Source: Patiria pectinifera
Taxonomy: Eukaryota; Echinodermata; Asteroidea; Valvatida; Asterinidae
Direction: 5' to 3'
Length of the DNA: 64,000 bases
Assembly: GCA_029964075.1 (NCBI GenBank)
Contig: CM057142.1
Location: 31,250,392 to 31,314,391, forward strand
Shown: positions 46 to 39,665 of the stretch, piece by piece
Position numbering within the stretch: position 1 is the first letter of the stretch
Layout of the letters: the number at the start of each line of letters is the position of its first letter
The notes under the pieces: model-generated
Database searches by the model: none
Seen by the model: only the letters and a program-made list of their open reading frames with translations
What the model was told of the DNA's origin: nothing
Translations under genes and position numbers: made by a program

Positions 46-415
46 TGTAGCGAAATAATCTTTTGTCAGGCCATGCATTTTGTTATTATTGCGATCAAGA
101 GAGGGCGCCAGACAAGACCTATAAAAAGTATCCGTATCTGGGCAGACCCGCCGAGGTCGCCAGGGTCATACGCTAGACAATAAATGATTACAATGTATAC
201 ATTTGAGGCGCGGGAAAAGAGTACGCGCAACAGGAAAAAACGAGTTGCATGATGATATGTGGAAACACGAGGGAAGTTTACACATGATTTTCGGTGGACA
301 GAAGCAGAATAAATCAGCTCGACAAGTAAAGCACATAGAAGAGTCAGTGTGCATGTTTTCGTTCCAGCTTTATTGAAACCTGTACCCCTTTGCTTCACGG
401 CAAAATAACACTACA
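46..415 (+). repeat. 5' LTR
   Basis: 370 bp, starting TG and ending CA, nearly identical to 7853-8223. It contains a TATA-like box (TATAAAA from 120) and AATAAA words at 178-184 and 308-313 that could serve as polyadenylation signals. The start is fixed by the break in similarity to the 3' copy together with the TTTG target duplication at 42-45. Confidence 0.95.
120..126 (+). promoter_or_regulatory. TATA-like box in the 5' LTR
   Basis: TATAAAA lies 74 bp into the LTR, with the same sequence in the 3' LTR at about 7927. It is the likely core promoter of the element's genomic RNA, with the U3/R boundary expected roughly 25-30 bp downstream. This is a motif match only. Confidence 0.5.
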
Positions 416-418
416 AAT

Positions 419-436
419 TGGTAACACGGATGGGGT
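419..436 (+). promoter_or_regulatory. Candidate tRNA primer binding site
   Basis: TGG, the complement of a tRNA 3' CCA, appears three bases after the 5' LTR end and is followed by TAACACGGATGGGG. The position is right for a minus-strand primer site. I could not assign the primer tRNA from memory. Confidence 0.5.
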
Positions 437-1292
437 GTGGGTAACGTGTTTGAAACGTGAACTGGACGACGACAGAAACAGAATTTTGGAGCGTATCGTC
501 GAGAGATTTTGCCTGGGCTGCTGCTTGCTTCAAGTTCAAGACGGGACGAAATACGGCGAACGGTTTAAGAGTTCGTCGATCCATGCATGCAACCGGGACC
601 TGAGCTGCAGGCCTTCCCAATCGAGCCTGACTTGCTGAAAAGCGGACTGTCTGAGAAGTCCGCTGTGCCGTGACAGCTGCCGTTTGATCCGCTGAGTGCA
701 CCGAGACCCGTGGGCAGCGGACGTACGGTCTTCGCTGCGAGGAGACGGGGTCCGCAACTACACAAACGCCTTCGCTGGACGTTGAATTATTGCACTTTGA
801 ACAACGGGGGTGTTGCTGTGACTGATACCACTTTTGGATGACAGAGGCGTGAAGCTTGATGTCCGAGACTCGCTTGGACTGGGCCTACTGGTGTGGGGAG
901 CTCGAGAGGGCAACAGTCAAGTCGGCTACACCTGTACTGGAGTGACGGTTCAACGCTGCGGTGGATGAACTGAGGATTGACAAGTCTCCGGCCTGGATCG
1001 ACTGGTGAAACAGCTCATGGTATTGTAACTTAGGCAGGACTGATTAATGAACTTTCACCTTTAATTGTATTTTGAACAGTACACGTGTAGGCTATAATTT
1101 CATTAAGGTTTGCCCTGAAAACACAAAAAAAACCAGTTGTTGTATTGTTGAGGTGTGTTTGAAGTCAGCTGCCTAATACATGTAGTTTGCTCATTATCTC
1201 ATTTTGTGTACATACGCAACAGTGTGTCCGAAGTTATGAAAGTTTGATTGAGAGTGCTTGAGGACTTTTTTGGGGGCACAGAAGCAAATATT
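437..1292 (+). other. Untranslated leader of the retrotransposon
   Basis: About 860 bp between the candidate primer site and the gag ATG. Short open frames exist on both strands but none resembles a protein I know. It probably holds the packaging and 5' untranslated sequences. It also contains GTAAGT-free stretches and no obvious splice donor strong enough to name. Confidence 0.5.
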
Positions 1293-2387
1293 ATGGCTAA
1301 CTCAGAAACAGATTTGATAACCCAGTTGGTGACAGGGCTGACAAATGCCCTTAAGCAGGATAAGCCTCGGGCTGTATCACAGCGCCCAATCAAGCTTTCA
1401 AAGTTTTCGGGTAAACCCACAAGGGCAGGGGACCCCACTATAATAGAATGGTTAGATGAAGTAGATGTGTACATTCAGCAATGCAGTATCCCGGAGGATG
1501 AGCAAGCAAAGGTTGTTATTCAGCATTTAACAGGGGTAGCCCGGGAGGAGATTAAGTGCCATGGGGATGAAATTAAAAACAATATTGCTTCCCTAAAGAA
1601 ACTGCTTAAGAGGAGTTTTGGTGCGGACGAGACTGTTCAGTCTCTTCAAAAAGCCCTCTATGAGCGCACTCAAAGGGAGGAAGAGTCACTGATGGATTTT
1701 TCTAGATCGCTTATGCGACTTCATGATCGAATCCTTGAAGTCCCGACAGAAGGCGAGAAGGGCGCCCTCAAGGGGTTACGCGACAGGGTGTTAATCAGCC
1801 AGTTTGTCGCTGGTGCTAGAATTCAATCTGTTAGGCTGGAGCTGCGCAGGCTTGAGTTAGCCAAACCTTCCCAAAGTTTCAGTGAGATGCGCGATGCAGC
1901 ACGGGAACTTTTCCGTGACATCGAAGGGGGGTCACGCCCAAACGGTCAAGTGCACCAGGTGTCAGCTGAAAGTGTATCACCTGAGGCTGAAGATAGTACA
2001 CCGGGGGTCAAGGTCAATGAAATTTCAGTTAATAGGAATAATGACCAGTTGCAACAGGTGTTAGCACAACAGCAAGAGCTGTTGCGATGTCTCCAGTCAC
2101 AACAGGGTATGTTGTTAAAGCAACAGGAGCAGTTGAATACATTGTTGAAACATGTACACGTAGGGCAAGATGCGAAAATTCCGCGGGTATCGGATACTGC
2201 CGGGAACAGACCACCCATGGTTTGTTTTTACTGTAAGAAAGCAGGGCATATCAAGGCTCATTGCAAGCGCAGAATTGCTAAGGAGGCAGCGACAACAGCT
2301 CAGCCATCACTCGAACCACAGTTAAGTAGTAATGTGCAGGGTAAAGTAGTCGGGGAGGGGTTAAACCCCCACGCTCCACAACTGTAG
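1293..2387 (+). CDS. gag: Gag polyprotein
   Basis: 364 residues from the first ATG in frame (reading MANSETDLIT); the frame is open further upstream to 1248 but only with a TTG. The middle of the protein (about residues 35-140) has the helical pattern of Ty3/Gypsy and PNMA/ARC-type capsids, with a conserved W in EWLDEVDVYIQ and an R/E-rich stretch near YERTQREEESLMDF. A glutamine-rich coiled-coil-like segment follows. A single CCHC zinc knuckle, C-x2-C-x4-H-x4-C (residues 311-324), marks the nucleocapsid. The protein packages the element RNA. It ends at TAG 2385-2387, inside the start of the pol frame. Confidence 0.93.
   Translation: MANSETDLITQLVTGLTNALKQDKPRAVSQRPIKLSKFSGKPTRAGDPTIIEWLDEVDVYIQQCSIPEDEQAKVVIQHLTGVAREEIKCHGDEIKNNIASLKKLLKRSFGADETVQSLQKALYERTQREEESLMDFSRSLMRLHDRILEVPTEGEKGALKGLRDRVLISQFVAGARIQSVRLELRRLELAKPSQSFSEMRDAARELFRDIEGGSRPNGQVHQVSAESVSPEAEDSTPGVKVNEISVNRNNDQLQQVLAQQQELLRCLQSQQGMLLKQQEQLNTLLKHVHVGQDAKIPRVSDTAGNRPPMVCFYCKKAGHIKAHCKRRIAKEAATTAQPSLEPQLSSNVQGKVVGEGLNPHAPQL
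2365..2387 (+). promoter_or_regulatory. gag-pol overlap, probable recoding site
   Basis: The pol frame is open from just after its in-frame TAA at 2362-2364, so gag and pol overlap by 23 nt. Pol lies in the +1 frame relative to gag. The overlap contains a run of five C (2366-2370), read in gag as AAC CCC CAC. A +1 slip on CCC-C is one possible way to make Gag-Pol; a -2 slip would also fit. This is inferred from frame geometry only. Confidence 0.45.
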
Positions 2388-4866
2388 GCCGAGTGGTGGA
2401 GGACAAGGTCAAAAAGGCCTCAAAAAAGGAAATTCCCAATGTGGAAGGGTGCAGTCAGAGCCTTCCATTGATGAGGTGCTCTCTAAGTTGGTGCGAGAAA
2501 GCCCAAAGGCTTGTGTGACTTTGGCAGGCGTCAAAACCACATGTGTACTCGACACCGGAGCGGAGGCGTCTCTGATTTCTGCATCTTTCTACAGGGAGAA
2601 TCTAGCTAAAAAGATGGCCGGGTTGAAACAGATAGGGATGCATTTGCGAGTATTTGGAGCAAGTTGCGTTGAACTAGCCATTGAGGGGTATGTTGAAGTC
2701 CCTTTGAGTGTTTACAACTACACAGTTGTAGGCCATTTTTTAGTAGTGAAGGATTCTGTGGAGGCTGACCCAAAACATAGACCTTGTCCAGTGTTGCTTG
2801 GATGCAACGTACTGCACTTACTGAAAGATCTTACAATAGAACCCGAGCATGAAGACGCTGGTGCATGGTCATTGGCATTACAGTGGTATGGGCTTTCAAG
2901 GGGATTGGACCAAACTGAAACTGAAAATATAGTCAAGGAGACATCTGGCAAGGGATCAGTTGCTGCGCGCACAGGCAGAAACCCAACCATGATATTGCCA
3001 AGAGAGGTGCGCCGCATACCGTGTTACTTAAGAGCACCGACTGACACCTTAGAGGGGTGTACGGTTTTGGTTGAGGGTCTGCCTGGAGTGAACGAAATGG
3101 GGCTCAGTAGTAGAACAGGGGAACAATCCGACTCTAGTACATGTACTTTGGGTGCCAACTTTAAGGTTTATGATTCATGTGAGATAACCAGGGGTAGAAT
3201 TGTCAATGTGTTGGTGGCAAATGTGGGAGCCCATGTACTTGAAATACCTTCACACTTTAAACTTGCCAGCGTCACAAAGATCACTACAAGGCCCAATGTT
3301 GAACTTGAGGAAGGGTCAGATGGGATTCATGTTTCAGTGAGTAATATCCTTTGTGAATCTTTGGGGTATCAGGAGTTGCCCCAGACTGATTTAGGCAAAC
3401 CCGTGGACCATGATATTGAAATAGGTGATGGTGAGTCGTCGCCGAATGGCGAGTTGTATGTTTTCGAGGATGGTTCGGAGTACCAGTTACCCATTGGGTT
3501 AAGTCTTGACTTGGGTGTAGAATTGAGCAGGGAGGATCGGGATCAGATAGTACATTTGATTCAAAAACATGACTCAGTGTTTTCAAAAGATTCTGTGGAC
3601 CTTGGGTTTTGTGACCAAGTCCCTCACACGATTCGGACAACCGATGACCATCCGATAAACCAACCGTATCGGCGTATCCCTCCACACCACCTTAAAGAAG
3701 TTAGGGAGTTAATTGAAAAATTCCTGGACCAGGGCATTGTGCAAAAGAGTAGTAGTCCATATGCGAGCCCTATAGTACTTGTACAAAAGAAGGATGGGTC
3801 CTTAAGAATTTGTGTCGATTACAGGCGGCTGAATGCCAAAACGGTTCGTGACTCCTTTCCTTTGCCTCGAATTGAGGAGTCACTGGAGGCACTCCGGGGG
3901 GCTAAGTATTTTTCATCTTTGGATCTCGCACACGGATATCATCAGGTGGCGATGGACCCTGACTCTGTCAGAAAAACTGCGTTTCGGGTTCCCTTTGGCT
4001 TGTACGAATACACCAGAATGCCTTTCGGGCTAGTAAATGCACCAGGAACCTTTCAGAGGGTCATGGAGATGTGTCTCGGTGACATGAACCTGTGTGAGTT
4101 ACTGATTTATCTTGACGATATTTTGGTGTTTTCGTCTACTGTTCAAGAACATATCAACAGGTTTGACAGGGTTTTGTCTAGGCTTGCTCAGTTTGGATTA
4201 AAGGTGAAGGGCTCAAAGTGCCACTTGTTTAGTGAACATGTATCCTACCTGGGGCATGTGGTTGGGCCAGAGGGTGTGGCTGTGGATGAAGACAAAATAC
4301 AGAAAATTAAGGATTGGCCGATTCCTGAGAATGCCGCGCAGCTTAGATCATTCCTGGGCCTAGCTGGATATTATAGGCGCTTTGTGCAAAACTTCTCCAG
4401 AATAGCGGCGCCACTGCATGCTCTTATACCCTCACAGGCTAAGGGCAATGCGAGAGGCAAGTTACCTAGTTTTGTCTGGGACTCAGATGCGCAGTTAGCA
4501 TTCGATGCATTGAAGCATGCTTTAACACATGCACCAGTTTTGGCCTATCCCAATTTTGCCCAACCATTTGTCCTGGAGGTGGATGCATCCCTGCAGGGTT
4601 TAGGGGCTTGTCTGTGTCAGGATGACGAGAATGGTAGAAGGCATCCGGTAGCGTATGCCAGCCGCGGTCTAAGGGGTGTTGAAGCTAAATACCCGGATTA
4701 TAGTTCCTTTAAATTGGAACTTTTGGCGCTCAAGTGGGCGGTAGTTGATAAGTTTAGAGATCACCTTTTGGGGGCAACCTTTATTGTCCTTACTGACAAT
4801 AACCCGCTTGCTTACCTCAAATCAGCAAAGTTAGGTGCTACTGCGACGCGTTTTGTTTCGCATTAG
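2365..4866 (+). CDS. pol: Pol, first segment: aspartic protease, reverse transcriptase, RNase H
   Basis: A long open frame with no convincing own ATG, so it is presumably made by recoding from gag. The protease active site D-T-G-A is encoded at 2551-2562 within a VLDTGAEASLI context. Reverse transcriptase spans about 3640-4270, with an SSPYASPIVLV block and the catalytic Y-L-D-D at 4108-4119. RNase H follows with acidic residues at 4582 (VDAS), 4717 (KLELLA) and 4795 (TDNN). The frame closes at TAG 4864-4866 inside RNase H. The recognisable RNase H tail continues in another frame from 4860, so this stop results from a small deletion (net loss of one base near 4857-4860) rather than a natural end. 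Confidence 0.93.
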   Translation, partial: TPTLHNCRPSGGGQGQKGLKKGNSQCGRVQSEPSIDEVLSKLVRESPKACVTLAGVKTTCVLDTGAEASLISASFYRENLAKKMAGLKQIGMHLRVFGASCVELAIEGYVEVPLSVYNYTVVGHFLVVKDSVEADPKHRPCPVLLGCNVLHLLKDLTIEPEHEDAGAWSLALQWYGLSRGLDQTETENIVKETSGKGSVAARTGRNPTMILPREVRRIPCYLRAPTDTLEGCTVLVEGLPGVNEMGLSSRTGEQSDSSTCTLGANFKVYDSCEITRGRIVNVLVANVGAHVLEIPSHFKLASVTKITTRPNVELEEGSDGIHVSVSNILCESLGYQELPQTDLGKPVDHDIEIGDGESSPNGELYVFEDGSEYQLPIGLSLDLGVELSREDRDQIVHLIQKHDSVFSKDSVDLGFCDQVPHTIRTTDDHPINQPYRRIPPHHLKEVRELIEKFLDQGIVQKSSSPYASPIVLVQKKDGSLRICVDYRRLNAKTVRDSFPLPRIEESLEALRGAKYFSSLDLAHGYHQVAMDPDSVRKTAFRVPFGLYEYTRMPFGLVNAPGTFQRVMEMCLGDMNLCELLIYLDDILVFSSTVQEHINRFDRVLSRLAQFGLKVKGSKCHLFSEHVSYLGHVVGPEGVAVDEDKIQKIKDWPIPENAAQLRSFLGLAGYYRRFVQNFSRIAAPLHALIPSQAKGNARGKLPSFVWDSDAQLAFDALKHALTHAPVLAYPNFAQPFVLEVDASLQGLGACLCQDDENGRRHPVAYASRGLRGVEAKYPDYSSFKLELLALKWAVVDKFRDHLLGATFIVLTDNNPLAYLKSAKLGATATRFVSH

Positions 4867-6047
4867 CCGCGTTCAATTTTGAAGTACAGTTCCGTTCAGG
4901 GAGAAGCAACAGATGTGCAGATGCACTTAGTAGGTATCCTGGGCATGCAAGTAATTCGTCAGAGGTTGAAGGTCTTATGCAGGATAAGTTGCACTCGACT
5001 TTACTTCCCAAGACGGCAGTAGTTGATAAAGTGAAGGTTAAACAGACACATAATGAAGTACCCACAGAGGGGGCTGGACCTCCTGGTGTGTTTCCGTCTT
5101 GGTCGACGGAGCAACTTTCTTCCTTGCAAAAGGGTGATACAGAGTTGGGTTGTGTCTGGGAGTGTTGGAACCGGAGGTGGACACCAGGGGAGGTAGTGCC
5201 TGATGAACATGGTCAATTACCTAAGATTAAGTTATGGCTTGATCAGTGGTCACGTATTGTTGATCGTGACGGGGTTCTTTGCCGGCGGGTAATTGATCCT
5301 ATACATGGAGAATTATTCCAGATACTCTTGCCGAAAAGTCTTCGACAGAGAGTATTGGAAGGGTGCCATGACGGATGGGGGCACCAGGGAGTTGTCCGGA
5401 CAAGTTCATTATTAAGGAGACGGGTTTACTGGCCACAAATGACGGCAACCGTTCGTCATTATATTGACCATTGCCAGAGGTGTATTACTTCCAAGGTGGC
5501 TCAACCGCAGACAAAGTTTCCCATGCGTCATCTGCTGGCATTTCGGCCTTTGGAAGTTCTAGCGGTAGACTTTGTTAAACTTGACAAGGGTTGCAGGGGA
5601 TTTGAAGATGTCCTTATAATGACAGATGTATACACAAAGTTTTCGCAAGCAGTACCTTGTAAGGATCAACACGCAGTCACAGTTGCTAAAGTGTTAAGGG
5701 ACCATTGGTTCACAGAGTTTGGTATCCCGAATAGACTCCACAGCGATCAAGGGAGAAATTTTGAGGGGGATATTGTAAGGGAGCTTTGCACCTTGTATGG
5801 AATTAAAAAGACGAGAACCACCCCGTACCACCCTGAAGGGAACGGCCAAGCCGAACGCTTTAATCGGACCTTGTTTGGGTTGATTCGCTCTCTGGATGAG
5901 CGTGACAGGCGCAAATGGCCAGATTTACTATCGCATTTAGTTTTTGTGTACAATGCAACACCTCATTGTACGACTGGGGTCCCTCCATACACTTTAATGT
6001 TTAAGGGAACCTCTGATCCCTTTGGATCAGATGCTAGGAAGGAATGA
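4860..6047 (+). CDS. pol: Pol, second segment: RNase H tail and integrase
   Basis: Continues pol after the first break, with no stop between 4860 and 6045. It opens with the end of RNase H (CADALSRYP context) and a linker, then integrase. The zinc-binding H-x4-H is at 5367-5384 and C-x2-C at 5472-5483. The catalytic D,D,E codons are at 5568 (AVDF), 5745 (HSDQG) and 5835 (HPEGNGQ). D to D is 58 residues apart and D to E 29 apart as read. This enzyme inserts the cDNA. The frame ends at TGA 6045-6047 after a second frameshift near 5998-6006 (net two bases missing or one gained relative to the continuing homology). Confidence 0.92.
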   Translation, partial: ALAAFNFEVQFRSGRSNRCADALSRYPGHASNSSEVEGLMQDKLHSTLLPKTAVVDKVKVKQTHNEVPTEGAGPPGVFPSWSTEQLSSLQKGDTELGCVWECWNRRWTPGEVVPDEHGQLPKIKLWLDQWSRIVDRDGVLCRRVIDPIHGELFQILLPKSLRQRVLEGCHDGWGHQGVVRTSSLLRRRVYWPQMTATVRHYIDHCQRCITSKVAQPQTKFPMRHLLAFRPLEVLAVDFVKLDKGCRGFEDVLIMTDVYTKFSQAVPCKDQHAVTVAKVLRDHWFTEFGIPNRLHSDQGRNFEGDIVRELCTLYGIKKTRTTPYHPEGNGQAERFNRTLFGLIRSLDERDRRKWPDLLSHLVFVYNATPHCTTGVPPYTLMFKGTSDPFGSDARKE

Positions 6048-6594
6048 TAGTAATTGGGAGCAGGACTTTGTTGCTGAACAGGGAGAATTGCTAGATCGTG
6101 CTAGGGAGATTGTAAAAGAGAGAGTAACTAAGCGAAATATCCAAAATAAGCAGCGGCACGATAGTAAGCGTGTCGACAAACCCATACACTGTGGTTCGCA
6201 GGTGCTTATGAGAAGACTAGCATTTAAAGGTCGTCACAAATTAGCAGATAAATATGAAAAGGTCCCATATAAGGTAATTTGGACCAGTGAACATGGGGAT
6301 GTTTTCCGAATCCGTCCTATTAGAGGTGGACCAGAGCGAATCGTAAATAGGAAATATTTACGACTTGACCCTATGGTGGAAATTGATTCTCAGGGTAGTG
6401 AGGAATCCAGTTCAGATTCAGATTGGGATGTAATAGAGCAACCCGTAGAAGAAGTGTTGGGTCAAAAACAACATGGTGTTGGCAGTGATAAAGTAGGGGA
6501 GTCAGGTGGCTCTAAGCTGCCTAGACGGTCTCAGAGAATTAATCGGGGCATGAACAGCAACCCATTTCGACTGCCCAAGTCAGTTATAAAGTAA
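5998..6594 (+). CDS. pol: Pol, third segment: integrase C-terminal region
   Basis: The open frame resumes right after the second break and runs to TAA 6592-6594. It holds the rest of the integrase core linker and the C-terminal GPY/F-like domain (about 6196-6360, containing LADKYEKVPYKVI). An acidic-serine tail and a basic RRSQRINRG-type motif follow near the end. No chromodomain is visible. The frame opens only after a TAA at 5995-5997, so it cannot be a separate gene. It is pol displaced by an indel. Confidence 0.9.
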   Translation, partial: CLREPLIPLDQMLGRNDSNWEQDFVAEQGELLDRAREIVKERVTKRNIQNKQRHDSKRVDKPIHCGSQVLMRRLAFKGRHKLADKYEKVPYKVIWTSEHGDVFRIRPIRGGPERIVNRKYLRLDPMVEIDSQGSEESSSDSDWDVIEQPVEEVLGQKQHGVGSDKVGESGGSKLPRRSQRINRGMNSNPFRLPKSVIK

Positions 6595-6897
6595 TGTCTA
6601 TGTACTTTGTTTGAACGCTTGTTGCGTGCTGTATGTTGGGAAGTTACTAATGGAAAGGCTGGGGTATCCAGTTTCCACCTGGTGATCACCCATCTGTCAG
6701 CATCAACATGTGTTTGACAGAAGGTACATGAATTTTACAGAGTTAGTATTATGTAAGTACCTGTATGTATAATAGTAACCTGTTTTGATCACTTACTTTC
6801 AGGTGTGTGGAAAGCCTTGTTGCTACTTCGAAGGAAGGTTTGGGGAATCCAGTTTCCTGTAGTGACAACTTGGCTAGCCAACATCTCCAGTAATTAG
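6595..6897 (+). other. Spacer between pol and the SGNH gene
   Basis: About 300 bp without a reading frame. Two ~50-bp stretches resemble each other (about 6655-6705 and 6835-6885, each around a GGGxATCCAGTTTCC core). A good splice acceptor (ACTTACTTTCAG, ending 6802) and a donor-like GTAAGTACC at 6753 are present, so the downstream gene may be expressed from a spliced RNA. That last point is inference. Confidence 0.5.
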
Positions 6898-7477
6898 GGA
6901 GGTTTTGTACTTTTTGGTCACAGTTTCGTAAAGAGAATGAAGAACAGACATGGTTTTGCATATGAAGTCGAACTGCAGAGAAGCAAAATCCCTATCGCAT
7001 GTATTGGCGAAGGCGGGTTGACTTTTGACCGGGTCCTGTGTAACCAAGGCCGTTATTTCCGACAGTTACAGAAATTGCAACCCACAGTATTAATTATTAA
7101 TTTGGGAACAAACGACCTGTGTTCGGTTGAGCGAACCCGGCCCCTTGCCAGGTTCACACCTCACTTTGTAATATGGTGTCTGCTCTTCATAAGTGGGATG
7201 TATACCCTGATACTTTGGTGTTTTTACCAGTTTTGCCACTAACCGGGGGGTTGAGAAGCTACCAAGTGTCGTTGCAGACATTTAATAGGATAGATAGAAT
7301 GAGCTGTTGGAAAAGTCCACGTTCCTTGAAGATCGATGGTGGGTTTGGCGCCATCGAGGTCTCAAGATCCCGCGCTTTAGTTAAGATGGGGTGCATCTTA
7401 ATTCGGAAGGAATGATGCAGTGTGAGAGGACACTACGGAAGTTACTTAAGTTTTTCGACTCTCGTATCTGGTTTTAG
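6898..7477 (+). pseudogene. SGNH/GDSL-type hydrolase in the env position, frameshifted
   Basis: About 190 residues spread over three frames. Block I reads FGHSFVKRM (nucleophile Ser codon 6922, with G-H-S in place of G-D-S). Block II is IGEGGL (7003-7020) and block III is INLGTNDL (G-T-N-D codons 7105-7116). After a shift near 7165-7172 comes the strand DTLVFLPVLP. After a second shift near 7383-7385 comes block V DGVHLNSEG (D 7385, H 7394). All four blocks needed for an SGNH esterase are present and correctly ordered. The frame closes at TAG 7475-7477 and a stop (TAG 6895-6897) precedes block I. SGNH domains are known in Ngaro/DIRS-type and L2/CR1-type retroelements; I do not recall them as a standard part of Ty3/Gypsy. 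The molecular role is unknown. Confidence 0.8.
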
Positions 7478-7852
7478 CTTCAAGGACATGATCATTAAGC
7501 TACATTTGTAACTGATTAGAGTATTCATACATGTAAATTCAAAAGAGGAGTTGTATCATGTAACAGAGTATAATGTGTAAAGAGTTTATCGAGATGTTGG
7601 GCCAATCAGTGTAACTTTTAAATAACTGTTATAGAAGACAGCCTGAATGGATACATAGCAGTACACGTGTTCATTTTTATCAATTGTTATTCAAGCTTGT
7701 TGTATTTCCAGTTTTCCTTGTTTATAATAAGTATGTGTAGTAAGGCAAATAATGTATGCTGTAAAGAAACGACATTTTGATTTTGTTAAATCCTGTGAAA
7801 GCATTGCTTTTAACCTTGATCTCCAGGAGTAGATCACCCAAGTAGGGGAGTT
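7478..7852 (+). other. 3' untranslated part with polypurine tract
   Basis: No open frame of note. The last bases before the 3' LTR (about 7840-7850, AGTAGGGGAG) are purine-rich and sit where the plus-strand primer of Gypsy elements lies. Confidence 0.6.
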
Positions 7853-8223
7853 TGTAGCGAAATAATCTTTTGTCAGGCCATGCATTTTGTTATTATTGCG
7901 ATCAAGAGAGGGCGCCAGACAAGACCTATAAAAAGTATCCGTATCTGGGCAGATCCGCCGAGGTCGCCAGGGTCATACGCTAGACAATAAATGATTACAA
8001 TGTATACATTTGAGGCGCGGGAAAAAGAGTACGCGCAACAGGAAAAGACGAGTTGCATGATGATATGTGGAAACACGAGTGAAGTTTACACATGATTTTC
8101 GGTGGACAGAAGCAGAATAAATCAGCTCGACAAGTAAAGCACATAGAAGAGTCAGTGTGCATGTTTTCGTTCCAGTTTTATTGAAACCTGTACCCCTTTG
8201 CTTCACGGCAAAATAACACTACA
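7853..8223 (+). repeat. 3' LTR
   Basis: 371 bp, matching 46-415 with four substitutions and one extra A in an A-run. It ends TACA and is followed by TTTG (8224-8227), the second copy of the target duplication. Confidence 0.95.
8177..8182 (-). terminator. Antisense AATAAA inside the 3' LTR
   Basis: Read on the minus strand this is AATAAA. It lies ~250 bp beyond the stop codon of the minus-strand sialyltransferase gene. I see no AATAAA or ATTAAA on that strand between the stop (8428) and the LTR (8223), so the LTR may provide the polyadenylation signal. This is inference. Confidence 0.35.
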
Positions 8224-8427
8224 TTTGGAAGGAAACACAGGCGTTGCAAAGCATGGTGGGTACGTGCATCTCGTGCTCAACCTGGTATACAAAAATAATG
8301 CTCAAAGAAATCGGTGCGAAGGGCGAATATAATAGACAACCTATAGTAACGACCCAAAAAGTTTGTATTTTGCAGTACACCCTTTGCTTTACGACGATCT
8401 AACGCAAAGAGTATACTGTTAATGTCA

Positions 8428-8728
8428 TCATGAGTTGCTCCCCGTGGTAAAGAACTCCTTCACGTCCCGCTTGTACCAACTGATGATCCCCGCCCGGTCC
8501 AGACCCTTTAATATGGCCAACTCGCTGTGTATGTCGTGGGCGGTGTTGCGTCCTTTCTCTATTTTCATACTAATGCGACGAAACACGGTGTCGGTATAGT
8601 AAAGGGAGTACTTGACGTTATAACCCATTCCGTAGACGCTGACTCGGTCGCAGCCAGAGTGAAAGGCAGCCATGAGCATCAAGGCACCCGTGGTGGGACG
8701 GTAGGACTTCTGGGGGGAGTTCACCCAT
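8428..8728 (-). CDS. Sialyltransferase exon 8: motifs S, III and VS, stop
   Basis: 301 bp, residues 358 (shared)-457. It encodes [14 protein letters not shown] and CDRVSVYG (motif S with the disulfide Cys384), YYTD at the motif III position, and HDIHSE, the H-x4-E of motif VS whose His is the catalytic base. It ends at TGA 8428-8430. Acceptor TTTTTCCAG. Confidence 0.95.
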
Positions 8729-11700
8729 CTGGAAAAACACCAGGAGAAGAGGCAAGACAGTGGATTGTCACATATCTTTAAGATAAAATTCCATGAGCTG
8801 TGTGACCTCAGCTTTATGAACTTTTCATTTTATTTCATTTCATTTAATATATTGATTTTCTCAGGTAAATACAAAACAGCACAGTTTAAAAAGGAACATT
8901 ATGCACAATATTCACAGAAAAAAAAACACACATGAAAAATTGCCTTTAAAAAAAAAAAAACAATTAAAACTACAGACAAAACAGAAACAATACAAGCACA
9001 GCACCCCTGACGAATTGGCTAAAATCAGTTTCAGTCATGTTCCCTTCATCCAATAACAGTACTGAGTGATAACTTGTTTGTGCAAAAAGGAACCAGACTA
9101 TTCCAGCCTCGCTTTGGTTACATTGATTTGAATAGGAAAAAAATCAAATGTCTGCAACATGGTAATGGTCTATATCGTTGTCACGTGCCAAAGGCAAAGA
9201 CAACAACGTCCGTGTCAGACACGTGAAATGGCCAGCATTCTCATAGTTATGAAGTGCTTACATCTTATTGATGTATCTTATGAAGTCTGGATGCAGGATT
9301 CTAACATCTTGAGCGGCGGCTTTAAGCTTTGGTTCCTTGCCTCGCACGACGGAAGTGATGTATTTGTAGTCGTTGTCCCGACACGGCACGAATACGTAAA
9401 TTAATCCCTGAATGTTGTAAACGAAGGGAAACAAAGTCAGTTTTGAACTGAAGAATAAGGAGAAGCCCAATGAACGATTAAGATGATATAGGCCTACACA
9501 AGTGACAATGTTTCTGCTGATCCATGATTAAGAACGAACCCCTGCTCTCGATTATGGCTCTGCAAGTATAACCAACTTGCCGAAGATAAAAATCGCCAAG
9601 TATGGATGATAATGTTAAAATACTGAATACAACTGATCAGTGCAAGCCTATCAATATAAAACGGCCACAGCATCATTGCATGGATTCAACGCATTTGCAA
9701 AAAGAGAAATCCAATATGGCTGAACAGTGCTACAACCACTCCTACCTTATCATTTGGGACGTCCGTTGCATTGGTACCGCGTAGAGATCGGTCATAGAAA
9801 ATGTAATGTGTTGTGCGATTCCCAACATCCCTTTCATGGTTTCGTCTAATAGCCTTGTTGACACTGGATGCAATTGATACAATCAATACAGTTCATCAAA
9901 AACAAGAAGTTTTAAAAAAAATCAGCCAAAGTATTCTCTCGTGCTAAGAAGTGACCTAATAATCTAATCACTCACTGATCTTACCACTCCCTGATCCTGA
10001 CTAGAAAATCATTTTGACAGTTTTTCCATTGTAATTGTTTTCCTAGTCAAATTTTTACTGAGTTTCTTTTTTTAATTGCTAGGGAAACTTCAACTGACCA
10101 AGAGATGTCACTTCATTGTTTTCTATTCAGTCAGAATAGATGAATAACAAATGACAGCGAGAGAACAGTAACAAAGGAATTCCCTTTTCAAGCCGTAGAC
10201 CTTTATCATGCTGCCACTATTTCGGTCATGTTCACCGTATCCAATAACAGTATATTGAATGATTATTGTTTGTGCAAAAAGGAACCAGACTATTTCCCTT
10301 CCAGCCTCGCTTTGGTTACGTTGATTTGAATAGGGAAAATCAAGATGGCCGCAACATGATGATGGTCTATATAAGTAGGTTGTGAGTCACGGTCCTGCAC
10401 GGACTGGATGACCTGTGACTGCCTGGTACGCCAAAAGAACTTGTGTATACCATGCACAACTACAACATGTAAGGGCAAATTGACTCTTAAATAACAAGTG
10501 ATCCGCGGATCGCATGTGTTGCCTTTTTCCGAGGTCGATCCCTATATGTTTTATGTTCTAAAAAAGTGAAATTTTATGCATTGTCAATCAACGACCACAA
10601 ATGACCCCTATATAACATTTGACCTCCAATTTTTGAAGAGTTGTGATGAACCCCCACCCCAGGATCACTCCATCCAAGTGACATTGAAATTCGTCAAATT
10701 CTTTAGATAAGGAAACATTTGAAGCATATTTGAACAATGGCCTCTAATGACTCCTACATGACCTTTGACCTCAGTAACCCGATTAAGAATTGTGTCTTCC
10801 CACCCAAGGGTTACTGCATCTAGATGTAAAAGGGTGCCCCTTTTGACAAGTGATTTTTATTTAGTTTTTAAGTCTTACTCTATCAGACGTCAATATTTTT
10901 TTCCCTTTATTTTGGCTTGGAACACCACTGTCAATTTTCTTTTTCTTTTTCTATTTAAGTATTATCTTAGGTTATTCCCACGCCCGCAAGACTAAGAGAG
11001 ACCTTCTTCTTGAAAGTGGAGTGACCCCTGGACAGGAAGGTGCAGTGGTTTGGGTGGTGTGTTCCACCATGCTTTTTAGTGCTGTACCATCTACCATCAA
11101 TTCCAACTGCCCTGTCTCTTGTCTCTATTCTTCAGCTCGCCAGCAATTCCTGGATCTTTGATCCCCTACCCCCCCCCCCTTACATGAGTTTAATCAAAAT
11201 CCATGACTGCATGTACAATGTAAACTTTCAACACATTTATGAAAGAAAAATATCCCACATTAACCTTGCTACTCAATGAGCCTAATCATACGTTTTGTGG
11301 AATTCAGGCAAATGTCTAGGAAATGGGAACATGCATTCCCGAAACCTTTAACGTACATACGGGGCTACGAACATACAGTCATAATTTTGGACTGTTTAGT
11401 GTCTCCCAAAACTTCCGTCATACGACACAAAAATGCCAACCGGTTGCGAGTTGGACCGTTTTCCAGTCAAATCCAACAATTTAATATTTTCAGATTAAAT
11501 ATTTTCGGAAGTGTGGATGGGACCTTACCGGAAGACCATGTGATGGTTGTCAATCTCTGCACCTTTCCGGGATCCGTTGAGTATGCCGCCATTACCGACG
11601 ACTGCACAGGACAGACATTCAGGCCGGGGATGGTCGTTTGAAAATGCGAATATGGAATTTTTTGGTGGGAAGATTTTGAGCGTAGCAAGGTAATCTAATG

Positions 11701-14700: not shown

Positions 14701-17700
14701 CTTCCTTTTTGGAGGACGCCTCCTTTTTTAAACCGAAAAAAAGAATAAAATTTCAACAGTGACATCATTTTGGCCTCTTTGTCTGTTGCATCTAGCCCAT
14801 ATAATTATAAAGCTGGTATGTAATTTCCCGAGTCCAATGGGGCCATTTAAAAACAAAACCTGGCGGCCATCTTGAAAAATATCCCAGTCGGCCGGTCATT
14901 TTGGAGGGGAAAAAAGGGGCCTCCCGCTTCCTTCTTTTTCAAAAAGGCAGGACGCTAAACATGTTTTTGTATTTGGCCTCCTAGACGCGAAATTATGACA
15001 ACAAAGAGGTTGTTAATATTGTGGCGGAAAGTTGACTTATTGCTGGTAGGTACATGTAATCCCAATGCATTTTTGTATTGCATGTAGCTAGCGCCCTTGT
15101 GTATGCGTGCGTGACGCTCTTATAGTGTGCGCCAGCCAGAGGCAGAGAAGTATATAGGTAATACTTGCGCTCTGTGATTTTGTGGTATTAAATGCATACG
15201 GCGCAGCTAGTACAAAGCCGTATAAGCTGCACGTAGGTTTATACGCTGCCCATGTTTCTGAATCGGAGTCGCGACTAAATAATCAAAGCTGCTGATGCCA
15301 GCTCATTTGCAAGTGCAGGCGTGGACGTGTGTAATGCTGATGCGGTTGCATATGCTGATGTGCCTGTGTAATGCTGATTCGCTTGTGTAATGATGATGCG
15401 TCTGTGTAATGCTGATATGATGCGGTTGTACATTACTGATGCGGTTGTATAAAGCTGATGCGCTTGTGTAATGCTAATGCGCATGTGTAATGCTGATACG
15501 GGCGCATGTGCATTATTGTTGTAGGCCTATATCGAATTGGTTACACTGTGGTGCATTGCTGGCATTGTTGTGCATTACTGAGGCTGCAGTAGGTTCTCTC
15601 CCCAATAATTAAGAACCCAGCTAATAAAACAGCCCCAAGTGAATCTCAATTACTTTACATTTATCGATTGTTGTGAAGTAAAGTATAATTGTAGTGCCTG
15701 CACCGACTTCGTTTATTGTGTAATTAATAGACAGTATTAACAATCATTCACAATCGAGGGTATATATTTCCTTCAAAACGGACCTGCACCCTTAGCCTTG
15801 AGGTCGCTCTGAGTGGTCTCTCGTTTAGGGAAGAGCCTTGGTTTGAGAAGATTGTCTCCACCCTAATAAGTGTCAGACTTGGTCCAAACAGACCTAGGTT
15901 GGCCCGGGGAGATTCCCGCCACAATTCCCAAAAGGCCGCTTTACATCGTTAAAGTTATTCAACAAAACAAATCCTTAAAGTCAAACATTTTGTAGTCTAC
16001 ATGCACATGCCTGTGTCGGTCTACCTCTCCGCTCCCCCATTGTATAAATGGTCCAGTCCATTGACCTTTGTGGTTAGATTAGGTGGGCGAAAAGGCATAC
16101 ATGGTCACAGGGTCAGTGCGCGCACACGAAGCTGCTCAGTTGTACACAGAGATTCATGGTCTCTACAAATGGCATATTCGCACATATAAAATGGTGAAGA
16201 ATCCATTAACTAATCCTGCACTTTCAGACCCAGATCCCTTCCAAAATCTAATCGACAAAAAGCATGCATAAGGTGGGGCTGAATACTTACTGAAGTGCAT
16301 AATTGGTCGGTGGTGTCGGTGTGACAGCTTGGTTGCAGGTCCAGCCAGTGCAATTGGGACCTCGCGTCGTCATGCTGTCGAAAAAATTAAAAAAGATAAA
16401 GTGTTCATAATTATAGGCTAAACATCACTGTTGTGAATTGCGTGCTTGATGCGGGGGGAGGGGGGGGTGCTGGTCAGTTTTAGGATATTTGGCTTGTAAG
16501 ACCCAGTTAATGCGGGGAGGCATTTGGATGTTACAGCCTGTTTATGTTATTATGGAGGAAAGAATGTTTTTAAGAGTGTGGACCGGTAAAGATATTACTT
16601 TTTTAAATAGTACCCAAAATGGTTTTGGTGAAGTTTCCTTGTGTACCTATCTGTACCTCTATCCGTACTAATAGGTATCTAGCACGGAACGGTACCTAAG
16701 CGAACGTTATGACCTAAAATATGACGTATCCTCCAAACAAAAGGCTCCCATTGTGACATGCTGAACAATACCCGTTTCACGCATATAATAGGCCTTCTTT
16801 CGGTGAGTGTCTTGCGATACAAAGTTGCCCGCGATAAGTACGGATTAAGGATCGGATTAAGGCGGTGAGTGACAGCCGAACCGCCCAGCGCACATTGTCC
16901 GCATGACAATCACTAGAGGGCCCCGGAATGCGGGAGTTTTAAAAGCGTATATTGAACATGTGAAATAGGAAATAACATTAACAATTAATTCTGCGCTGAC
17001 GTCGATAAGAACCTCGTTTTCGGAATTATAATAGGAATAGGTGTGGTTGGGAGTAGACTACCTTACGTACCCTAACTTGGCATCTGATTGGCTGTCCCGT
17101 ATATTGTGTACATTGCCGATAACAAAGGAAAAACGCAATGGGAGGGACTTGGTGGGCCTTAGACGCTGATGCGTGAAAATGAATGTACATTTGTACATGT
17201 ACATGTGGCTATGTAGACGTATATGTCCGGGATCAGGGGTTCGAACAACATTTTCCAACAACAGTACTTCGAATTCAGGTTGATTGTAAAAATGGATATG
17301 CGAAGGGTCAGGGGTGTGTTGGCTGCTTGTGCGAGTAGCCTTCCTCCGCCACTTGATTTAGGTTCTAAGACAGGAATTGTCGATATATTATCGGCACTAG
17401 ATGTTGGTATGCCAATGCCGAATGTGCCTCCACCTACGTTCTATGAACTCGTTTTTACGGGGCCTTTGAACAATTTCAACGGACGGGATGTCTACACGAC
17501 TCTGATTCGCCAACCGAAGTCCTTTTGGATGGAGACAGGGGAAACGGTGGAGTCATTTGGCAACCTTTTGGCGTTTGTCGGGACAGCATTGCAAGAGGAG
17601 GAAAGGGAAAATATTGAAGGGAGGAGGAGGAAAAGACTCCTCGATGCCAACAACCGACTGTTACTTACTCTGATATGGCTACGAAAGTACCAGGACTTTA

Positions 17701-20700
17701 ACTCTTTATCCGTACTCTTTGATGTCAGCGAATCGACCGCCCAAAGGATAACGAAGACAGTGACGGGAGTGCTATGGGATGCTTTGACGGGGGAAATACG
17801 GTGGCCGAACGAAGCCGTTTGGAACTCAATGCGGAACGTGTGGGCCACATTTCCGAATGGAGTTGGAACCATAGATGGGACGTCGCATGAAATATTCACA
17901 CCTGAAGATGACCAACACCTGTACTACAGTGGTCATCGTCATCGACACTGCCTTCAAACACAGATAATAGCTGATTCGAAGGGAAATATAAGATACCTGC
18001 ATGTAAGTAACATTTATTGCCGTTATCATAGCGCAAAATAAATGAAGAACACATTATTGGTTCACAACATAATTATTGACTTTTTTTTAACATAAATACC
18101 AATATAACAATGACTTTGGGAATACACACTGGATTGTATGACAATCACTATTTTGTATTACATCGTTAAAAAATACTAACACATCAGTTGTGCACTGTAA
18201 CTATACAAACGCCAAATAAAGGCAATTTATTCATCAGCTGTAGATTAATCACCACAAGCTAGGCGCGCAGGAATCATAAACATACATTAATTACACCTTA
18301 TTATAAATGAGGTTTTCTTTTTCTTCTTAGTCCGGTTTCCTTGGACACACGAACGATGCTGCACAGTATCGCCTCCTCCCTGAGATAGGCCACCAGCGTC
18401 GTCTTCATCTTCCGGAGGGAACATACTTGCTGGCTGACAGGATTTATCCCAATGAGGAGCCGCTCTTAACACCCTGGAAGGCAAATGAACTTCGTGGTGA
18501 GGAACGATACAGGAGGAAAATGTTTAACAAAGAACATGCATCTGCTCGAGTGGCTATTGAACACGCCATCCGACATTTAAAGACATACCGCATAATGCAG
18601 GGGCGATATAGAAATAACAGGGATTTGTTTTCGCAAATTGCTGATGTTTGCGTCTGCCTTGCGCAGCGCCATGTCAAATTCTATGGACAACTCCGTTAAC
18701 CCTTCAAGTCAACCTAGCGATACACACTGAGATTTAGTACAGAAAGAAAATTGTGAGGCTATTGTTTTACACTTGTACATGTGATAGGAGTACATACAAT
18801 GATTTTTACTTTAGTAATGATTCCTTTATTTTTGTTAAATCTGAGTTAACCTGTATCATTTTTTTTTTGTGGAAATTGCAAATAAATGAAATGAATACAG
18901 ACAAGCATCAGTTTAAAGGTGGAATAACGCCCACCCTTTATTGTTAGGCCTATATCATAATATAAACGCCAGTCACACTCTTGACGTGAAAAAGGTAAAA
19001 ACAAAGAAAGCAGTTAGATTCCACCATAATGGTTGTCGTCTCATTTTTGTTGTTTAATGACAATGCTGTTTCTAAATGTGCCATGTCCTCCTTTTTTGGC
19101 CTAAAATTAGGATTTTGATTTTATCAAACAATATTGACAATTTAACTCCTCATGCATCTTTACTTAAAAGCGAGGTTGCCATGAAGTGGCAAGCGACGTC
19201 TTTGTTCCTTACCTCTACAAATTCTCTTCGATAGCATCCAAAATCCTATCCACCCTTTCCATTCGGACCTGATGGGCATCTAGCATGTCCGAGAAACGTT
19301 CCTGGTTCCTCCTTGCAAGTGCCCAGAGAGGCTCTCTCCGCCGTGCCGGTGCATCTGGCTCAGGTTGTGGCTGTCTGTCTTCTGGTTCATGTCCTATGTC
19401 GTCTTCATCAACTTCATCCATGTTTTCATCACCAGGGGGTACAATGGGTGGGGGGGGGGGTACAATCGGTGGGGGCGGGGGTACTTCCGCGACAGCGTTT
19501 AGCCGGTCCATTTCTTCTTGTCTGGCCCTCCATGGAGCAACAGGCCCAGCATGCCGCATCTCTTGCTCTCGTTCTTCCACTGCACTGGAAATCAATGGTG
19601 TACATTATGTACATAATTTTCATGGGCTTAACGCATGTACATGGATTTTGTAGCCTGAATTACTGGATTTTGGAATCATTTACGCTTAATTTAAGTTAAT
19701 GGAGAAACATCCTAAATTTGTTTTTTTTTTAAGATACCTTGAGATTCCCTAGATACTTTGTTAATGGCAAATTCCTTGATTTTGTTTCTAACTTACTCTT
19801 GTAATTCCCTTTGGACGTAATCCCGGATCCTCCTTCGTAGGGCTGCATGAGTCCTGCCTCCTTCGTACACCTCCCGTATATTGGCGGGAATGTGGCGCCG
19901 CACGTACGCTAAAATTCTCACGTAGTTGTTGCGGTGTATATTCCACCCATCTCTAATCACGGCTTTCTCCTCCTCAGTCATGACACGACGCCCGCGATGT
20001 TCTCTCTCAGCCATTTTCTGATTGCCTCCTACCACGTACATAATAATCCGCCCAACCTATTCTTATTGCATTGAACGGAGGTTGTTATCGACGCCAGCAC
20101 AGAATTAATTGTTAATGTTATTTCCTATTTCACATGTTCAATATACGCTTTTAAAACTCCCGCATTCCGGGGCCCTCTAGTGATTGTCAAGCGGACAATG
20201 TGCGCTGGGCAGCTGTCACTCACCGCCTTAATCCGATCCTTAATCCGTACTTATCGCGGGCAACTTTGTATCGCAAGACACTCACCGAAAGAAGGCCTAT
20301 TATATGCGTGAAACGGGTATTGATCAGCATGTCACAATGGGAGCCTTTTGTTTGGAGGATACGTCATATTTTAGGTCATAACGTTCGCTTAGGTACCGTT
20401 CCGTGCTAGATACCTAATGAAACAACTCGAAACAACTGAGATAATATTTTGAGCATGTTTATTACTTCAATATTGTTATTTCTGCAGCTGAATAATAGGC
20501 TACAACAACCATTAACCAACTAAACATATTTGTATGTCAATTTACGATATGGGTGTCGTTGTTTGTTATTCTCTTTTGTTAAATATTTCGGGGGGAAAAG
20601 GAAAATCTTGAACTGATTCTTGAACTGATGGAGCTTGTAAACAATCCGACTAATTAACCGCCCTAGTCTTTTGCACTTCACAATCCTTCAAGTTTTACAA

Positions 20701-29989: not shown

Positions 29990-32900
29990 GATGATGGTGG
30001 ACGAGGGTTGCAGCAGCAGTGGCAGGGGTGGAGGCGAGGGTCACGGCTGAGGTGCAGTTGAGGCACCAAAGGGGACAGTGGAGGTTGTGTCATGATTAGC
30101 TGCCAGATTTTTCCTCATTACTTTCGTTTTTCTTTTCAGGTGGCTGCGAATGTAGAGGATGACAATGATGGAAGAGATGACAGAGGCAACAGAGAAAGTG
30201 GAGGCGGTGGTGGCAACAGAGACAGAGGTGCAATGTGACCCAGGTGCCAATGGTTGTGGAGGTGACTGAGCAATGGGCAACAGAGACACCAGAGGGGACA
30301 AAGGAGGCAACAGTTGAGGCAACAGAGGGACAGAGGACACAGAGGGGATGGAGGTGTTCCAGGTGCAGAGGCTATGGTGGAAGCGTGAGCTATGTGCAAT
30401 TGTGCAATTTTTGTAAATCAAGATATGTGTATAATTAAAGCAGTTTATACATAATCTACTGCCTTGTACATGTATGCGGCAAAAATTGTTGAACCTATTG
30501 ATTGCCTTTCCCTCGTTTATGTGTCTGTACATTTAAAATGAACACTAGCAGTAATTCTTTAGTGACAATGCTACATTATCAGGGCCGTCCATTTTCAAAT
30601 AATTTAGTATTTGATTACTCGAAACTGTTTGATCGAATATTTGGATGTTCGAATCTGCAAGCTGCAAGTATGCACTGTGCCGGTAAAAAGTTGCATGAAG
30701 AGCGTCTGGTCAAAATTTGAATGTGGCAATCGATATTGGGAACTGGAGTGATTTGCAGCAAGTATCTTATAACTGTAAATGGCTTTAACCATCTAAAAAG
30801 GTGTGAAGGATGAACTGCCGTCAACAAAAACGTTACTGTCAATAAAAACAGTGGCACCTGGCAATAAATTGCCGCAACTTAACGATAAAATAATATCATA
30901 GTGGTGTCTGCATGTGGGTAATTGTTTTGTTTTCTAATATTCAAACTGGCATCAAGCTATTCGGAATATTCGGTTGATGGTCAAATATTCAAGTATTCTG
31001 TATATTCTGTACGTTTGTTTTAATCCTTATTTTGCTGAATATTTATTCTATCTTTTCATTTTATTTGAGGGTGAAGATTAGCTTACAATTTGTCCTACAC
31101 TGGCACATGTTTGAAATATTCAAACAAGAAGAACATTTACATGTATTTTAATTAAAAGGTAATTATAGGCCTACCTGTATTTGAGAAAACCTTCTGGTTG
31201 GTGTAAAGGTTATCGAAGATTTGTCAACTTGGAGACTTAAAAATTAATGAAAACATTACGGCAGATGTGTTCATATACTGGCTTTTGCCCTTTGGCAGCT
31301 TATTTGACATACTTAATATAAGATTTAAATCTCCCGACGCAAACTCCATCTTATGAAATGTAGGTTTATCATGCAATTTTTTGATGCAGTGGCTCCAAGT
31401 CTTACATAACACTATAATTTTGTGTTGTATTAAACTTTGTTAAAGTCTATTGCAGACTTTTTGGCTGTTCAGATATTCACCATGAGCAACATTGATCAAT
31501 AACATAAATAAATCTTTTTAAAAAGTTAATAAGAGTGGTTGTTATGGTTGTGATTGGTTGTGATTGTTTTGACAGAAAAAAAACTACCTTAATTATGAGA
31601 CCAATGATGTGATTAGTCGTCTGAATGACTACTCACTCTTGTATGCAACACCGAATCAAATGTCAAGATCCATGTCCGACGGACACTGTGTCACGATCAG
31701 GTCACAGCTAGCCAGACGAACAATGCCACTGTCCAGTTTTCTGACCAGTGGCCTATGGGAAGCGACACCAGTTCTTTCTCGGAAGGATGCAGCAAGCTGG
31801 TACTTCAGAAGGTGACCAGAGTTCTTTGAGAACATTACTGTATTGTAATTCTCCCATGACTATTGAAAGAGTAAGATGACTAACTGATATGTCATTTAAG
31901 ACATAATTTTGTTATGTTTTGTATGGCTATTCCACCTAATTTATCAGTACATGTAATTTGAGACATCATGCAGGAGTTATAGTTATTAGTTCAATTGAAT
32001 GACTTAATTTGGCAATGTGCTATTTAACGTGTTCTAAAACTGATTGAAATGAAATAAATTAAACTTTAAACCTTATTGAGTTATTGGTGTCTATTACATG
32101 ACGATGGTGGCTGAGGGCAATGGAGGAGGGCTGAGGGGCAATGGTGGCAGGGGTGGAGAAAGTGGCAGATGAGGCGATGGAGACAGCAGAGGTGGCTGAG
32201 AAGCTGGAGGGTGATGCAGGAAATGGAGGCGGCTCAGGTGCACCGGAGGGGATCATGACAGCAGACGGAGGCAGTGACGGAGGCAACAGAGCGATGGAGG
32301 AGGCCAAGAAAAAGGAGGCTAAAGAGGTCACAGAAGCATCAGAGGCAGCATATGTAAAGGAAGCAATGGAGGTGATGCAGGCAGTGGCAAGTATATGGAG
32401 TCAATGAAGGAAGCAGCTGAGGGAGTTGACGGTGGCAACAAACAGGGTGGAGGCAGCAGAGGAAATGACTAACTGAGGCAGCAGGAGTGGCAAAGGCTAC
32501 GGAGGTGACAGAGACACCAAAAGGGAGCAGATACACAGGAGGTAGAACAAGAAAGGCAGTGGAGGCAGCGGAGGCAGCAGAATCATTGGAATCAAATGGG
32601 GCAGTGGAAGCACCTGAGGGGACAGGTGTGGTGCTGTCAACTATTTTTATTAAGTGGAGGAGGGGAGGCTACACAGGAAATGGAGGAGGTGCAGGCTACT
32701 GAGGCAGTGTAGGCGCCAGAGTGGATAGAGAAGGCAGCGGATTTAGTGGTGAAGGAAACAGAGGCCACACAGGCTATGGAGGTGGCGGAGTTGACAAACG
32801 CAACTGAGGCAGCAGAGGCAAAGGAGGAAGAGGAATGGACAGAAGACGCAGTGTCAGCTTTGCTTCAAGATATTTGTAATGTTGTGTAGGCAAAGGAGGT

Positions 32901-38540: not shown

Positions 38541-38998
38541 TAAAATTATTTTAGACTGTCTTAGGAATTGACTGAAATCTTACGAATTGTTACAGTGATT
38601 GTTCAGGCTGGTGTGCGTCGCTGCCATTGTTCACAATCACAGTTTATTTATTCACTTGTTCTCCCGCCACAGAGTTGAAAAGGATATATGTTGGTCATAT
38701 TCTCTGGGCCTATCAACCTGATCAAGGAATTTGCCAATCGATGTATTTTCAGTGTTCAACTAAGTTGAAAACAGGATTTCCTTGAGAATTAAGACAATGA
38801 AATTATTATTCAATATTGAAAGCTAAATTTGGTCAAATTTATTTTTTAAAAGAAAATGGAACTATTTTACCATTTGTTTTGTCGTTTGATCGTATGGCAT
38901 AGTTGCATATATAATTCCTGAAGCTTTAATTCCAATGTTATTTGGTGTACTACAATGTATATTCACTATTGATTACTTAGAACCAGTCAAGTATGGCA

Positions 38999-39146
38999 GT
39001 GACTGAGGCGCTAGATTCCCCCCCCCCCCCAAAAAAAAAATTAACTTTGTCTTTGGTGCCGAATCGAATACTGTATTACTATTACTTATTAGCGACCGAC
39101 TAAAGTTAAAATTCGAGGGAAAAAATAGTTCTAGCGCCTCAGTTAC
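38999..39146. mobile_element. Short inverted-repeat MITE
   Basis: 148 bp with ends GTGACTGAGGCGCTAGA and TCTAGCGCCTCAGTTAC and inner inverted words TTAACTTT/AAAGTTAA. Contains a C-run/A-run block. Non-coding. Confidence 0.75.
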
Positions 39147-39279
39147 AACGTCCAGTTCACGATCAACATTGACATTATTTACTCACTTTTTCTCCCGTCA
39201 CAGATAAATGCAACCAATATCCGAATAAATTTCGAACTACTGAAGATAAACGCCTTTACCAAACTCCAACTATGGTATA

Positions 39280-39665
39280 CTTGCGCGCGTACGCGTAACG
39301 TATAGTGCCCCCTCTATCGATGAGTACTCTCCACCTAAAACTTCAGAAAACTTTGGATGAATCAACTGCAAGCAGTGGTCTTGTACTGAACTGCTGTGGT
39401 ACTTATTGAGTGTGCGTGGCGATGTGAACCAGACTAATTTAACAATCTTGAGCGTTTGCGTGGAAAGTGGAATACTTTGCGTGCTTTTACAAATGTTTTA
39501 TGAATGGAATTTAGCACTGTGGTTTGCAAGGAAGAGGTACAATTCCTTGGACGATAAAACTGATTTTGCATAGGATTTGGGCAGTAAAGGATCAGGACTT
39601 GAAACGCTTGGCGGCTGAGTAGTGGTACACGAAACTACATCATGTAACGCACGCACAGTTACCCG
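39280..39665 (+). promoter_or_regulatory. Candidate promoter and noncoding first exon
   Basis: A locally CpG-rich stretch (GCGCGCGTACGCG near 39285, then many CG dinucleotides around 39670-39760) with a strong donor CCCG|GTAAGTACAG at 39665/39666. The next good acceptor on this strand before the DNRLRE/LDLa/MAM gene is TTTTTCTTGCAG at 42277. It could be the first exon of that gene. Inference from composition and splice signals only. Confidence 0.35.

Follow-up and report, generated by a model that had tools for sequence, protein, structure and literature searches.

A Ty3/Gypsy retrotransposon family of Patiria pectinifera with a predicted SGNH/GDSL hydrolase gene at the env position

Why would a Ty3/Gypsy retrotransposon carry, in the place where env would be, a gene for an SGNH/GDSL hydrolase? 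The question is raised by a long terminal repeat (LTR) element of 8,178 bases that occupies the left end (positions 46-8223) of a stretch of 64,000 nucleotides from Patiria pectinifera (assembly GCA_029964075.1, contig CM057142.1, forward strand, 31,250,392-31,314,391), which we call the window and whose plus strand is meant below unless stated otherwise. An earlier note on this DNA had read the diagnostic SGNH blocks in order between pol and the 3' LTR, and the blocks are indeed found there: the first frame piece (6898-7242) holds block I (GHSF, at 6916), the block II Gly (within CIGEGG) and block III (GTND, at 7105), a second piece (7131-7415) holds the middle part of the gene, and a third, in a different frame from the first (7385-7477), holds block V (DGVHLN, at 7385) and the stop codon. 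A motif scan finds the set of GHSF, GTND and DGVHLN nowhere else within the 64 kb. The same note had placed the gene inside the retrotransposon, and the borders of the element agree: a 5' LTR with TGTAG...CTACA ends (46-415) and a 3' LTR (7853-8223) are mismatched at 4 of 370 aligned bases, with one gap, and are flanked by identical TTTG target-site duplications at 42-45 and 8224-8227. The SGNH gene is broken in this copy, which also lacks the start codon, the ATG with which whole sibling frames begin just upstream of 6898. The profile check that the note had proposed for the three pieces gave a weak match for the first one (Lipase_GDSL_2, E 0.0022, 19 bits, with a cut-off of 32.9) and failed for the second and third, which match no Pfam profile at E up to 10. 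Since the pieces in the window match so weakly or not at all, the case for an SGNH gene rests on the siblings.

At least 12 siblings of the SGNH region occur in the 613.5-Mb genome: ten match at 94-95% along its whole length, one matches in two separate parts, and another reaches 87%; they were retrieved with the SGNH stretch as query, a set that cannot reveal copies without SGNH. The order of integrase, SGNH and LTR is retained in all 12, in whole or partial elements, and the gene does sit at the env position, as had been claimed. With the window copy included, both LTRs are complete in 8 of the 13 copies, and all eight carry the 4-bp duplication, which can be assessed in these and not in the other five. 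Their LTRs differ at 0, 0, 0, 0, 1, 2, 3 and 4 of about 370 bases. The intact siblings that the note had hoped for, with catalytic Ser, Asn and His, exist: the SGNH frame is uninterrupted in 6 of the 13 copies and measures 200 amino acids from stop to stop, or 194 from the first ATG.

The product of this third gene is a predicted stand-alone SGNH/GDSL hydrolase of 194 amino acids. One intact sibling protein matches Lipase_GDSL_2 at 4e-7 and 31.1 bits, just below the curated 32.9, and in an alignment of this protein with its relatives (A1) all 27 members match the same profile at E ≤0.01, the best at 1.9e-16. The catalytic residues stand at the expected places (Ser10, Gly38, Asn73, Asp165/His168); over the 27 rows Gly, Asn and His are invariant and Ser is kept in at least 90%, and a text test finds the Ser, Asn and His block patterns together in 104 of 121 listed relatives, with one or more absent in 17. 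The predicted fold (pLDDT 93.7, pTM 0.90) is that of an SGNH hydrolase and, among the matches listed, resembles platelet-activating factor (PAF) acetylhydrolases, sialate O-acetylesterases and bacterial acylhydrolases; carbohydrate esterases are also among the listed solved structural neighbours. By simple counts on this one sibling, the protein is basic (28 K+R vs 18 D+E) and has no transmembrane-like stretch (highest 19-residue mean hydropathy 0.84), no N-glycosylation motif NxS/T and no hydrophobic start.

The element around the gene is of the Ty3/Gypsy kind, as the note had read it. Its pol, whose first frame ends early in the window copy, lies there in three pieces: a DTG protease motif, reverse transcriptase (RT) and RNase H (2365-4866), an H2C2 zinc finger and integrase core (4803-6047), and the end of pol past the integrase core (5998-6594), which is without a Pfam match and is assigned by its place and by the uninterrupted pol of some siblings. 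The Pfam domains follow in the order RVT_1 (2.3e-35), RT_RNaseH_2 (1.1e-28), Integrase_H2C2 (4e-18) and rve (1.1e-11), and the protease, beyond its DTG motif, gives a weak RVP match below the cut-off (0.022). Within solved structures, to which this comparison was confined, the best matches of the RT are to that of Ty3 (4ol8_A, 2.9e-79; 7q5b_A, 1.1e-78), with the next match at 4e-41. An Ngaro/DIRS element was also considered and is ruled out by the integrase core and by the LTRs with their 4-bp duplication. That an SGNH/GDSL gene lies within a Gypsy element is thus, in our judgement, practically certain.

What the gene does for the element is a separate matter. We lean, with moderate confidence, towards a recently mobile Ty3/Gypsy LTR family whose third gene, spliced or internally started, encodes a cytosolic accessory esterase that likely acts on membrane lipids. 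This explanation starts from the place of the gene inside the element, the whole frames in some young siblings and the catalytic blocks, all of which are observed, and adds to them a modelled fold. The protein would come from an RNA that is either spliced or started internally, would remain in the cytosol and would serve the element as an accessory acting on acyl esters. Lipids would be its most likely substrate, at a membrane used in the assembly or transport of Gag particles, by analogy with proposals made for the ZfL2-1 esterase and ORF3 of the rotifer element Vesta. For the step to membrane lipids the best support comes from the ZfL2-1 esterase, an enzyme with ester-hydrolysing activity and affinity for acidic phospholipids (PMC3905857).

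On constraint in the gene the evidence is divided. The six whole frames differ at 24 variable sites, distributed 8, 4 and 12 over codon positions 1, 2 and 3, and the pooled ratio of nonsynonymous to synonymous differences (pN/pS) over their 15 non-independent pairs is 0.32, which hints weakly at constraint on SGNH as judged from sequence. Several observations weigh against the accessory-enzyme explanation. First of all, the pN/pS sample holds few changes in related pairs and is made of whole frames, with the seven broken copies left out. Second, the selection check that the earlier note had proposed comes out differently when raw divergence is used: among ten siblings, mean divergence is 1.66% in SGNH, 0.64% in RT and 0.69% in integrase, the value for SGNH being about 2.6 times that for RT, and the non-coding sequence beside SGNH diverges by 1.27% (linker) and 1.67% (3' part); by this measure, constraint appears no stronger in SGNH than in the sequence on either side. 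(L019 and L020 were excluded from the divergence means and from the counts of unique changes, and one more copy from the gag mean, owing to an incomplete match.) Third, the SGNH frame is broken in 7 of the 13 copies, the window copy among them, and two of the four copies with identical LTRs, L010 and L011, share the same break; spread without an own whole gene is therefore possible. Fourth, the substrate is not readable from the fold. Fifth, a scan of two loci over their first 1,700 bases finds no splice donor of the consensus form GTRAGT; acceptor-like pyrimidine-AG sites do occur in the linker that separates pol from SGNH (6595-6894), for example at 6796 and 6884, and splicing is a guess. 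Finally, variation within the ORF3s of rotifer elements has been described as mostly neutral (PMC5408684).

Two other readings take up these points, and the one that survives better changes the substrate and keeps the enzyme. It holds that the protein deacylates or deacetylates a protein or glycan, such as Gag or a host factor, in place of lipids, and so regulates particles or silencing. The solved neighbours fit it, since sialate O-acetylesterases and carbohydrate esterases stand among them besides PAF acetylhydrolase, but SGNH folds are broad in specificity and the sibling protein has no secretion-like features that a glycan role would call for; we consider it unlikely. Quite unlikely, too, is that the gene is a passenger from the host or from another element, carried without a needed function and decaying. 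Because two of the four identical-LTR copies are broken in SGNH and raw divergence is about that of the flanks, the accessory-enzyme chain is weakened and the passenger gains, and the breaks in 7 of 13 copies and the excess over RT count in its favour as well. The window copy fits this pattern: it differs from its siblings by 4.0% in SGNH (6895-7477) and by 0.8% in RT, which makes SGNH its most altered gene. The changes of its own show no bias to a single mutation type, and the excess may reflect either a loss of constraint or an exchange by recombination with some older copy. What speaks against a passenger is that relatives retain the catalytic blocks across wide divergence, that pN/pS among whole frames is below one third, and that the frame is whole in the other two of the four identical-LTR copies.

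A working substitute for env, with export or packaging of the protein and a role in taking particles across membranes between cells, is very improbable. The gene occupies the env position, and a membrane-penetrating role has been suggested in print for GDSL ORF3 (PMC5408684; PMC6431247), but the sibling protein lacks the transmembrane-like stretch, N-glycosylation motif and hydrophobic start noted above, and the authors of the rotifer study took the missing transmembrane domains of ORF3 as suggesting no env-like function (PMC5408684), which makes this reading less likely here as well. An env protein as such was tried as a candidate and is ruled out, with no membrane anchor, fusion or signal stretch or N-glycosylation sites in the simple counts on one sibling. 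A foreign gene inserted by chance into one copy has a negligible probability, with SGNH at the same place in 12 of 12 siblings (themselves retrieved by the SGNH stretch), and these siblings rule out chance motifs likewise.

Whether the gene has a longer history can be approached through its relatives. A search with the single SGNH protein finds 30 relatives, of which the best shows 70% identity across 99%, and a profile search finds 858, of which 120 are listed. In a tree of 122 rows, drawn from listed relatives and with a bootstrap that has not settled, the family lies inside a 20-row set (100/98) nested in a 33-row set (100/99). The RT has 6,492 relatives, with identities up to 80% among the 120 listed, and those named among the 120, at 48-62%, come from two sea cucumbers, a sea urchin, a feather star, a pearl oyster, a tubeworm, fish and frogs. 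Contigs of 14,746, 4,677,478 and 6,305 bases recur among both the listed SGNH and the listed RT relatives, which, from matching sizes by eye alone, suggests that SGNH and RT lie on the same contig in three cases, though on the 4.7-Mb contig not necessarily within one element. Their SGNH and RT identities to the window family are 57 and 79% (14,746), 36 and 59% (4,677,478) and 29 and 58% (6,305), and both partners are near the window family only in the first pair. The RTs of the second and third pairs fall outside the 14-row RT set that contains the window RT, and the SGNH of the third (P0240) falls outside the 33-row SGNH set; several captures are therefore as possible as one. That a broad animal Gypsy lineage has long retained an SGNH esterase, standing alone where env would be, inherited together with RT and serving as a lasting cytosolic helper on lipids, is a tentative and somewhat doubtful idea.

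Searches in viruses and prokaryotes gave little. Scans of viral contigs with the sibling protein and with alignments A1 and A2 yielded no confirmed relative, and a scan with the RT alignment (A3) yielded one Gypsy-like contig (L021), none of whose four listed frames of at least 120 amino acids is SGNH-like by eye. A tblastn search against phages found no match. A prokaryote scan with A1, through one short pattern only, yielded 128 stretches, two of which match remotely, at 25 and 29% identity, and no close relative was seen. Among the 50 Foldseek matches listed against viral models, the named ones are for the most part esterases, lipases, other hydrolases and tail proteins of phages, together with two giant-virus proteins; many others have no protein name. 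No row of the VIA-align list is titled ZfL2-1 esterase, which excludes nothing.

Hydrolase genes of this kind are known from other mobile elements. The earlier note had named Ngaro/DIRS and L2/CR1 elements, which are indeed carriers, but its list was incomplete, as GDSL third genes of LTR elements are in print (PMC5408684). A GDSL gene after pol is thus already known in LTR retrotransposons, and the window family adds another case. The separate capture by a Gypsy lineage to which the note had pointed is one possible origin of it. One of the nearest parallels is Vesta of bdelloid rotifers, whose ORF3, downstream of pol, is a GDSL gene (Rodriguez, Kenefick and Arkhipova 2017, PMC5408684): it shares with the window element the LTRs, gag and pol followed by a GDSL/SGNH hydrolase gene with catalytic residues, and its ORF3 is likewise reported without a transmembrane domain. 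All Vesta families, on the other hand, have a dUTPase domain between protease and RT (PMC5408684), and the 833-amino-acid frame of the window element shows none at E up to 10 with HMMER filters on. The genomes also differ, at 613.5 Mb here and 218 Mb for the A. vaga assembly (PMC5408684). Ngaro-like retrotransposons similarly carry an extra SGNH frame near the 3' end, but have a tyrosine recombinase and split repeats (PMC9210276) where the window element has an integrase, LTRs and a 4-bp duplication. The SGNH domain of ZfL2-1, a non-LTR element of the CR1/L2 type, is also encoded by a retroelement, and its hydrolysis and lipid binding have been measured; it is part of ORF1p, placed before the RT gene and fused to a coiled coil (PMC3905857), whereas the SGNH of the window family stands alone after pol. 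Finally, platyfish texim is an SGNH gene mobilised with a transposable element, as here, but the carriers are Helitrons, DNA transposons without RT alongside, and the gene has introns (PMC4021074). Among the matches listed from the open-licence literature, we recognised no Gypsy element with an SGNH/GDSL third gene outside rotifers.

The remaining parts of the element are conventional in place. A probable primer-binding region (416-441) is named for its position after the 5' LTR, and its 26 bases are identical in all eight copies with complete LTRs; a purine-rich stretch of 24 bases (7829-7852) ahead of the 3' LTR, probably the polypurine tract by its position, is identical in seven of eight (in L018 the right place was not reached). 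The gag frame (1248-2387, stop to stop) has a weak Retrotrans_gag match and, by eye, a CX2CX4HX4C knuckle, and it matches PNMA above the curated cut-off (2.8e-7); PNMA genes are domesticated gags. Within the linker, two similar blocks with CCAGTTTCC are seen by eye at 6660-6870, and in one sibling (L003, 2753-3548) the flank past the 3' LTR holds frames that by eye resemble a long interspersed nuclear element endonuclease and RT. As for the surroundings, a sialyltransferase (GT29) exon adjoins the element on the minus strand (8431-8829, PF00777, 1.2e-12), and Harbinger-like transposase pieces with HTH_Tnp_4 and DDE_Tnp_4 lie in two frames at 17217-18696 (plus strand). In the region 32001-40000 the two strands are strongly asymmetric, with a GC skew of 0.19 to 0.41 over steps of 2 kb, and there are long frames of low complexity, most of them on the minus strand. 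An Rfam scan of the window at gathering scores gave no match.

Patiria pectinifera thus offers a young, multi-copy Gypsy family with an enzyme gene at the env position, and its genome far exceeds the published rotifer genome in size. As some siblings in this single genome keep the frame whole, the long-standing guess that esterases of retroelements act on membranes becomes testable on one small soluble protein. Furthermore, if inheritance of the gene together with RT proves to hold across species, LTR elements would have lasting tools in SGNH enzymes and not accidental cargo.
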